From positions 1-22,057 of the forward strand of contig JACPHL010000116.1 of assembly GCA_016188625.1 (NCBI GenBank): a DNA stretch of 22,057 nt, read 5' to 3'. The translations under genes were made by a program, and so were the position numbers. Source of the stretch: Candidatus Rokuibacteriota bacterium. GTDB lineage: Bacteria > Methylomirabilota > Methylomirabilia > Rokubacteriales > JACPHL01. Positions 7,020-9,224 of the stretch are shown here, piece after piece; the stretch's first letter is position 1; each line of letters opens with the position of its first letter. Under the pieces are notes generated by a model. That model did not search any database. It was not told the origin of the DNA and was given only the letters and a program-made list of their open reading frames with translations.

Positions 7020-7388
7020 TCAGTCCGGGTCCTGGACGGCCTGGCGCGCCAGGGCCTCCTGGTCGGCGAGGAAGGCCTGAACCTCCTCCCAGAGCGCGTC
7101 CACGATCTCGGCCTCGGGGACCTTGCGGACCACCCGGCCCTGGCGGAAGATCAGGCCGATCCCCCGCCCGCCGGCGACCCCCACGTCGGCGCCGCGGGCC
7201 TCGCCGGGCCCGTTGACCTCGCATCCCATCACGGCGACGTGGACGGTTTTTCCGATCCCCTTCAGGCGCTCCTCGACGTCGCGGGCCAGCTTGACCAGGT
7301 CCACGTCCATCCGGCCGCAGCCGGGGCAGGAGACGAAGGTCAGCCCCTGCTGCCGGAGCCCGAGGGCCTTGAGAATCTCCAGGCCCAC
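7020..7388 (-). pseudogene. ispG: ispG, C-terminal part (4-hydroxy-3-methylbut-2-enyl diphosphate synthase)
   Basis: Carries the C-terminal [4Fe-4S] domain of IspG (GcpE), which converts 2-C-methyl-erythritol 2,4-cyclodiphosphate to HMBPP in the MEP isoprenoid pathway. From the GTG at 7388 it encodes 122 residues: [16 protein letters not shown], the CPGC ligand pair, and the intact third-ligand motif VMGCEVNGPGEA with its Cys and Glu, to the stop at 7020. Joined to the N-terminal part at 9224-8487 it would give a normal IspG of about 366 residues with ligands C265, C268 and C300. It is separated from the N-terminal part by the intein-like insert and a duplicated segment, so no continuous IspG frame exists here. 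It could be translated alone only from the GTG. Confidence 0.88.
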
Positions 7389-7393
7389 CCGGG
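7221..7393 (-). repeat. 173-bp direct repeat of ispG coding sequence, copy 2 (intein-free side)
   Basis: Matches 8314-8486 at a constant offset of 1093 bp with three mismatches (7224, 7248 and 7251). All three are synonymous: GGA versus GGG, AAA versus AAG, and GGA versus GGC. It encodes the segment from [10 protein letters not shown] through VAVMG plus the third-ligand Cys codon. Its downstream continuation is normal ispG; its upstream neighbour is the broken end of the intein. Confidence 0.95.
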
Positions 7394-8316
7394 AGGCGGG
7401 CGAGGCCCGGCTCGGAGGTGACGGAGATCACCCAGTTCCGCCTCCGGCCCCGCTGATCGCGATGGTGGAGGAACGCCGCGATCCCGAGGCGGAGCAGGAT
7501 CTGGTGGACCTGCAGGGCGAGCGCCCACGAGGACGTGGAGTACGTCGCCCGCCCGTACCCCCGCACGCACCCCCGATAGCCGTCGCCCTCCCAGAGCGCC
7601 CGAATCAGCGCCCGCTGCTTCTCGTGGGGGAGTCGCACCATCCAGCCGGGAAGATGCTTGGTCGCGGCACCACGCCCGAACAGCCCCTCCAGCAGCGTTC
7701 CCAGGGCGAGCGAGTGGGTGACGACCGCCGCCGTATGCCGTCTGCGCTGGAAGCCGGGCCTGACCCCGAGATCCGTGAGGATGACGCGCAATTTCTCGAC
7801 ATAGGCGTCTTCCCGCTCGTGGAAGTAGAAGAACTGCTGGTACGGCTTTCCGCCTTTCCCGGACAGCGTCCCCTCCGCGAGGTAGTACCCGCACAGGGTG
7901 AGGAAGGCCTCGTCCACCGGGATCAGGCCGAACCCCTCGGCGGTCAAGGTCGCCCGGTCTTCTTTCTCCTGGAGGACCGGAGAGGCGAGCACCCAGCCCG
8001 CCTGAAGCTCTCCGGCCCTCACCCACCGCGGCTCGATTCCCTCTTTCAGCGCGCTCAGGATGTGCGGCCACCGGTCCCTGCCGCCCTTCCGCCTGGTCGG
8101 ACGGGGGAAGGCCCAGACCGGATGGGTGGGGGTGAGCCGGAACGGGGGGAAGCCGGTGGGGTGGATCTCGACCACGTCGCCCCGGTAGTGGTGGCGGGTG
8201 GTCCAGAGCACCTTCTGGTACGCGCCCTCGTGGGTGAGAATCTCCGCGTCCTCCTCCACGGCCTCGATGGGCCTCGGCCCCTCCCGCGTCACGACCTGCT
8301 CGCCCGGAGGCAGGCA
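7394..8316 (-). mobile_element. Intein-like insert with LAGLIDADG homing-endonuclease motifs, C-terminally truncated
   Basis: Read in frame with the preceding exon copy (from GTG 8481), ispG residues ending VAVMG are followed by a Hint N-terminal splicing domain starting with Cys1 (CLPPGEQVVTREG, block A). Block B is LTPTHPVW with the TxxH pattern at residues 62-65. Two LAGLIDADG-type motifs follow: LCGYYLAEGTLS (141-152) and ALIRALWEGDG (236-246). About 303-308 intein residues are present. The C-terminal splicing blocks (a conserved block F and a terminal His-Asn before Cys+1) are absent: after WVISVTSEPGLARL the sequence jumps at CCCGGGTGGGCC into a second copy of ispG sequence, out of frame. 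As assembled it cannot cis-splice. Insertion is precisely before the third Fe-S ligand Cys of IspG. Confidence 0.88.
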
Positions 8317-8486
8317 CCCCATCACGGCGACGTGGACGGTCTTGCCGATCCCCTTCAGGCGCTCCTCGACGTCGCGGGCCAGCTTGACCAGGTCCACGTC
8401 CATCCGGCCGCAGCCGGGGCAGGAGACGAAGGTCAGCCCCTGCTGCCGGAGCCCGAGGGCCTTGAGAATCTCCAGGCCCACCCGGG
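8314..8486 (-). repeat. 173-bp direct repeat of ispG coding sequence, copy 1 (intein-side exon)
   Basis: First copy of the duplicated ispG segment in transcription order. It includes the CPGC iron-sulfur ligand pair and runs in frame into the intein Cys1 codon (8316-8314). The mismatches to copy 2 (8317, 8341, 8344) all lie within about 35 bp of the intein insertion point, and the other roughly 140 bp are identical. Its upstream end coincides with the 11-bp tandem duplication at 8475-8496. Confidence 0.95.
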
Positions 8487-9224
8487 GCCCACCCGGACCT
8501 CCTCCACCGGGTCCGCGGAGAGGGAGACCCGGATGGTGTCCCCGATCCCCTCCGAGAGGAGCGTCCCGATCCCCACCGCCGACTTGACCGTGCCCGCCGT
8601 GGGGGTCCCGGCCTCGGTGACCCCGAGGTGGAAGGGGTAGTCCACCTGGTCGGCGAGCATCCGGTAGGCCTCGATCATCATCGCCGGGTCGGAAGCCTTG
8701 AGGGAGATCTTCATCTCGGGGTAGCCGCACTCCTCGAGGATCCGAATGTGGCGGAGGGCGGAGTCCACCATCCCCCGGGCGGTGGGCCCGCCGTCCCGCG
8801 CCAGGAGGTCCTTCTCCAGGGAGCCGGCGTTGACCCCGATCCGGATCGGGATCCGTCGCTCCTGGGCGCGCCTGACCACCTCCATGACGAACGGCTTGCC
8901 GCCGATGTTCCCCGGGTTGAGCCGGAGGCCGTCCACCCCCTGGTCCAGGGCCAGGAGGGCGAGCTTGTAGTTGAAGTGGATGTCGGCGACGAGCGGGATC
9001 CGGATCTGCTTCTTGATGGCGGCGAGCCGCTCCGCCGCCTCGCGGACCGGGACCGCCACCCGCACGATCTCGCAGCCCGCGGCCTCGAGGGCCCAGATCT
9101 GGTCCACCGTGGCCTCGACGTCGCGGGTGTCGGTCTTGGTCATGGACTGCACGGTGACCGGGGCGTCGCCCCCGATCTTGACGGGACCCACCTGGAGCTG
9201 CCGCGTCCGGCGTCGCGAGATCAT
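8433..9224 (-). pseudogene. ispG: ispG, N-terminal part (4-hydroxy-3-methylbut-2-enyl diphosphate synthase), frame broken
   Basis: Encodes the TIM-barrel domain of Isp[67 protein letters not shown] and SLKASDP, ending with [11 protein letters not shown] at residue 246. The correct frame is then lost because CCGGGTGGGCC is duplicated in tandem (8475-8496, +11 nt), and the as-read frame ends at 8433 after about 17 wrong residues. The ATG at 9224 has GGGGAGG 5 nt upstream, overlapping the rseP stop 11 nt away. It sits with dxr, uppS and cdsA, matching a role in isoprenoid and cell-envelope precursor supply. IspG is essential where the MEP pathway is the only one, so this break may be an assembly fault. 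Confidence 0.9.
8475..8496 (-). repeat. 11-bp perfect tandem duplication inside ispG
   Basis: GGCCCACCCGG on the plus strand occurs at 8475-8485 and again at 8486-8496. Removing one unit restores a continuous IspG frame (EEVRVG then LEILKALG). The same motif is the point where the intein fragment joins repeat copy 2 (7383-7393), so both abnormal junctions use the same sequence. Confidence 0.9.

Follow-up and report, generated by a model that had tools for sequence, protein, structure and literature searches.

A probable class 1-type intein with a LAGLIDADG homing endonuclease domain before an iron-sulfur ligand cysteine of IspG in Candidatus Rokuibacteriota

The ispG gene analysed here most probably carries (we put this at roughly 85%) a class 1-type intein with a nested LAGLIDADG homing endonuclease directly before a cluster ligand cysteine, in a copy that was probably joined from two alleles during assembly. 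In the window (the whole 22,057-nt stretch of DNA that was analysed), the minus-strand genes follow the order rpsB, tsf, pyrH, frr, uppS, cdsA, dxr, rseP, ispG, proS, rimP, nusA, infB, rbfA, which is that of a common bacterial cluster (provisional names, taken from the ORF translations). The 5′ part of ispG (8486..9224, minus strand, as are all features below; start codon at 9224) encodes IspG residues 1 to ~246, after which the frame is broken upstream of the insert by a tandem 11-bp duplication, CCGGGTGGGCC/CCGGGTGGGCC (junction 1; 8475..8496). A first copy of a 169-nt ispG segment (...CPGCGR...VAVMG; 8317..8485) then runs into the intein fragment (7393..8316). A second copy of the segment (7224..7392) leads directly into CEVNGPGEARGADVG... 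across an intein-free junction, where the 3′ part of ispG (7020..7223; CEVNGPGEARGAD...) begins with the ligand Cys codon at 7223-7221 and ends with a stop at 7020. Both ispG parts contain the GcpE domain (Pfam, E 1.5e-106 for the 5′ part and 1.8e-36).

An intein-like element at 7394-8316 had been proposed by a sequence-only reading, and we confirmed it on the minus strand. After VAVMG, Cys1 (8316-8314) opens CLPPGEQVVTREG..., followed by RLTPTHPVWAF (block B), LCGYYLAEGTLS and RALWEGDGY in a frame open to 7393 (308 codons). The block B motif TPTH (TxxH) lies at 8122..8133, and its T62 and H65 are invariant in every alignment row. Two LAGLIDADG-type motifs with acidic catalytic residues were located by alignment, GYYLAEG at 7870..7890 and WEGDG at 7579..7593, the latter also by the Pfam model LAGLIDADG_3. 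The fragment covers residues 1-308 of ~371, and the C-terminal ~63 residues, comprising the C-terminal splicing region with its His-Asn, are absent. It matched LAGLIDADG_3 (E 1e-13), with GcpE immediately upstream (E 9e-17), and Hint_2 at E 1.6e-4 alone, which falls under the Pfam cut-off, or at 3.5e-5 together with the IspG sequence upstream; NCBIfam models of intein-containing DnaB, GyrA and RecA were also matched. These matches to both model types bear out the earlier proposal of a Hint domain with a TxxH block B and two LAGLIDADG motifs. An AlphaFold model of the intein (pLDDT 78, pTM 0.77) gave the TliVMA and PI-SceI inteins as its best Foldseek matches in the PDB (E 1e-20 to 1e-17), and its predicted endonuclease part matched I-DmoI, i.e. 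an I-DmoI-like fold.

The same insert is found at this cysteine in related genomes, and complete versions with a terminal His-Asn, as had been predicted, occur in ten relatives. Fifty-nine relatives, all within the same order, include 12 genomes with an insert at the IspG site: nine are complete, one is a mini-intein (L016), one is truncated (L012) and one is cut by a contig end (L015). The nine complete inserts (368-372 aa) lie in one open IspG frame and are 60-84% identical to the L005 insert; likewise, relatives 59-78% identical carry this insert at that residue too, within an uninterrupted frame. The tenth complete intein is that of G077, equated with L032 because length and position match, which represents a different order of the class; its contig is only 6 kb, and a binning error is possible. 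All ten include the endonuclease and end in His-Asn before CEVNGPGEA, and Pfam detected LAGLIDADG_3 in 10/10 and Hint_2 in 9/10. The 3′ half of L015 was located at the end of another contig (L107), ending LHN|CEVNGPGEA. The L012 copy (L109, G042:C266) is likewise broken, its intein being joined in frame after ILGLG to AADIGVAGG, and it is thereby without the intein 3′ end and CEVNGPGEAR, including two cluster ligands. Separately, an intein-free IspG (L108, G055:C532) was seen to miss ~37 residues in frame, including both CPxC ligands, which reflects either an assembly error or a dead gene.

Overall, the complete relatives show every testable hallmark of a class 1 intein with a LAGLIDADG endonuclease, as far as sequence can tell. 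Cys1 is present in the window copy and in all relatives, the complete copies all combine it with TxNH, His-Asn and Cys+1, and His-Asn is kept in the mini-intein as well; removal of the insert from the 738-761-aa frames of the relatives leaves a normal IspG. The window copy has Cys1 and TPTH, lacks the terminal His-Asn, has Cys+1 at the empty junction only, and its frame is broken. That absent C-terminal region, and the fact that Hint_2 is a general Hint model, would also suit a non-splicing Hint domain or homing endonuclease (a degenerate or hedgehog-like element), but we regard this as very improbable. The complete relatives retain all splicing residues despite differences of 16-40% in the remaining insert, their exteins are conserved and complete, and the 142-aa mini-intein L016, without endonuclease, still has both splicing blocks. 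Moreover, IspG is essential in bacteria using the MEP pathway, so non-splicing copies should vanish.

The [4Fe-4S] cluster of IspG is bound by three cysteines and one glutamate (PMC9919496). Joining the window flanks gives a GcpE domain with all four ligands (C265, C268, C300 and E307) and places the insert directly before C300. In a gap-free alignment this cysteine pairs with the MGC cysteine of the solved IspG 3noy, and Cys+1 aligns to the Cys of MGCxVN in the IspG structures 3noy, 4s38 and 2y0f. Judged by these alignments, Cys+1 is the third cysteine ligand of the cluster, in agreement with the earlier placement of the insertion exactly before it. In the intact relatives, a precursor of ~740 aa would be made, in which attack by Cys1 would be followed by transesterification to Cys+1; the terminal Asn, aided by the penultimate His, would then cyclise, and ligation would yield normal IspG. 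Before splicing, Cys300 would act as the splicing nucleophile, and because the cluster ligands are split across both sides of the insert (C265/C268 versus C300/E307), the unspliced precursor should be inactive.

The sequence-only reading had also held that the intein replaces a catalytic residue until spliced. This fits an intein with Cys+1 at the ligand, but not the window copy, which is not one intact intein gene: as assembled, without the C-terminal block, it could not splice, and the empty junction is present in the window as well. The likeliest reading of this copy, and in our view a probable one, is that two alleles, one with and one without the intein, were assembled into a chimera. The 169 nt of IspG upstream of the insertion site are present twice, which points to a chimera and not to one intact intein-containing gene, and the empty site behind the second copy indicates that both alleles are present. 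The first 141 nt of the two copies are identical, and their three differences, all synonymous, are confined to the final 28 nt ahead of the site, with the last one in the glycine codon that precedes it. The two copies have a common starting base, and from it exactly 141 nt pass before they first differ; a graph assembler using a k close to 141 would be expected to leave this pattern when separating two alleles. The shared 141 nt are close to the k of 141 in the contig names (k141_) of two sister MAGs, a k that may not hold for the assembly of the window genome itself; the unmasked contigs that were sampled showed no end overlaps from which its k could be read. Breaks within or at the site also occur in further MAGs, namely L012, L015/L107 and L106, an intein-free copy whose contig ends ~21 nt after it.

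An alternative explanation is a true genomic rearrangement, in which a partial copy of ~1.1 kb (the ispG segment and the intein 5′ part) was inserted into an intein-free ispG and left a dead gene. The window reads continuously and contains no Ns, which favours this explanation over a chimera. Furthermore, one 11-bp motif marks the start of both copies, and its doubling at junction 1 resembles a short target duplication, whereas a simple branch model of a chimera expects a long overlap at that junction instead of an unmerged 11-bp duplication; the in-frame loss in L012 supplies a second broken copy. We nevertheless consider a rearrangement unlikely. It would destroy the sole ispG found (no second one was detected elsewhere in the genome, which is ~84% complete), although dxr, uppS, cdsA and rseP adjoin it on the same contig as genes of the pathway neighbourhood, a fact that we count for a chimera. 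There is no biological reason why the copies should begin exactly 141 nt ahead of the point where they first differ. Junction 1 would not arise from a simple tandem duplication, nor would a repeat of the upstream exon be left by aborted homing. The missing 3′ end of the intein was not found across the rest of the genome. A survey of ~150 kb of the genome for local duplications (two contigs masked) gave one long repeat and some short ones; the long repeat was rejected as a sign of poor assembly, being an ordinary tandem pair of acyl-CoA dehydrogenase genes. If the window copy is indeed a chimera of two alleles, ispG genes with and without the intein coexisted in the sampled population.

The ispG intein was found in 14 of 95 genomes of the phylum, the window genome included, by a GTDB scan combined with a search of the phylum. 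The GTDB-wide scan gave 12 loci, all in Candidatus Rokuibacteriota/Methylomirabilota MAGs, and was built on two short conserved motifs that would miss distant relatives. The carriers, around a dozen, are related soil and groundwater bacteria, all uncultured, and most have a complete intein. On an IspG tree of 43 genes, the 14 carriers need 13 parsimony changes, which is no lower than the count obtained when labels are shuffled (mean 11.9, range 8-14), and the ispG genes of L005 (intein-containing) and L040 (intein-free) have only 12 differences in the 420 nt upstream of the site. Occupancy is therefore patchy, as for a mobile intein, and this patchiness is the one pointer to homing, in which the endonuclease would cut intein-free ispG alleles and the intein would spread; it fits gain by homing and/or repeated loss. 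In the intein tree, L005, L006 and the window copy group together with L032 (support 88/90), L009 and L013 form a pair, and L014 is an outlier among the inteins and not among the exteins. The intein and extein trees agree in part, making some vertical descent likely; for some carriers, the explanation may be vertical inheritance with loss and not homing. Not all copies are likely mobile, because in L011 the second motif (WEGGG) no longer has its acidic residue; this loss and that of the endonuclease in L016 would match the usual decay of homing inteins. Differences beside the insertion site were in neither excess nor deficit in five intein-containing/intein-free pairs, giving no sign of co-conversion there, and no copy of the intein was found in viral contigs.

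Other inteins were observed in the same lineage. Two radical SAM genes of the window genome contain inteins (L103, G000:C149; L104, G000:C192), as do genes of relatives (L017, L018). In the two inteins of the window genome, QN follows Cys+1 (GN|CQNF, GN|CQNYLTSQ), which places them before the third Cys of CxxxCxxC, a cluster ligand; the intein of L103 looks like a mini-intein. The window genome also has an intein in a UvrD/Rep-type helicase (L102, G000:C84; Intein_splicing E 4e-15), whose insert includes a GIY-YIG-like stretch (YVYLMERRGLGWRIGVTND) and gave no Pfam endonuclease match at E 0.1, and one in a DnaE-type polymerase (L105, G000:C256; HN|SHAASF) with a LAGLIDADG-like endonuclease region. 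A further intein lies in a glutamate-1-semialdehyde aminotransferase-like gene (L021, G051:C28).

Compatible with its identity as an intein is the idea that the IspG insert acts as a conditional switch, redox state or iron controlling splicing and hence isoprenoid flux. The position on a ligand cysteine, shared in the window genome by the inteins before the third Cys of CxxxCxxC, would suit such a role, and two papers report conditional, stress-sensitive splicing of mycobacterial DnaB inteins (PMC6195587, PMC8557812). We nonetheless consider it improbable, since the patchy presence even among close relatives shows the intein to be dispensable for regulation. Moreover, inteins often occupy active sites because such placement hinders their loss. 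Slightly more doubtful still is the broader proposal that the inteins of this lineage were selected for iron-sulfur ligand cysteines, in IspG and two radical SAM genes, with redox- or iron-tuned splicing switching isoprenoid synthesis post-translationally.

No IspG intein was described in the open-access literature searched under IspG, gcpE and the full enzyme names; the single match, PMC517821, cites an IspG paper and nothing more. The element is thus of a known kind, in a host (IspG) and at a site that are provisionally new. It would add an essential isoprenoid enzyme to the known intein hosts, with a catalytic cluster ligand as the first residue of the C-extein. The intein-containing, mini-intein and intein-free alleles of close relatives provide a ready set for studying gain and endonuclease loss, and likewise the cost of an unspliced essential enzyme. 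The finding also calls for caution, as MAG contigs can merge occupied and empty alleles.

Compared with known systems, the predicted architecture is that of the VMA inteins (TliVMA, 7qsu/7qss; PI-SceI, 1vde), a Hint splicing domain with a nested two-motif LAGLIDADG domain; the VMA host, however, is an ATPase with another insertion site, and sequence identity to the IspG intein is 12-18%. The radical SAM inteins of the same order (L017, L018, L104) are likewise LAGLIDADG inteins, with Cys+1 at a cluster-binding Cys and ~30% identity over the endonuclease, but they belong to another host gene and allele and have extra insert segments. The SufB intein of Mycobacterium tuberculosis (359 aa) shares with the IspG intein an iron-sulfur host, Cys1, a terminal Asn, Cys+1 and an endonuclease (PMC8891592). 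By description, they differ in that SufB assembles clusters, whereas the Cys+1 of the IspG intein would itself ligate the catalytic cluster.
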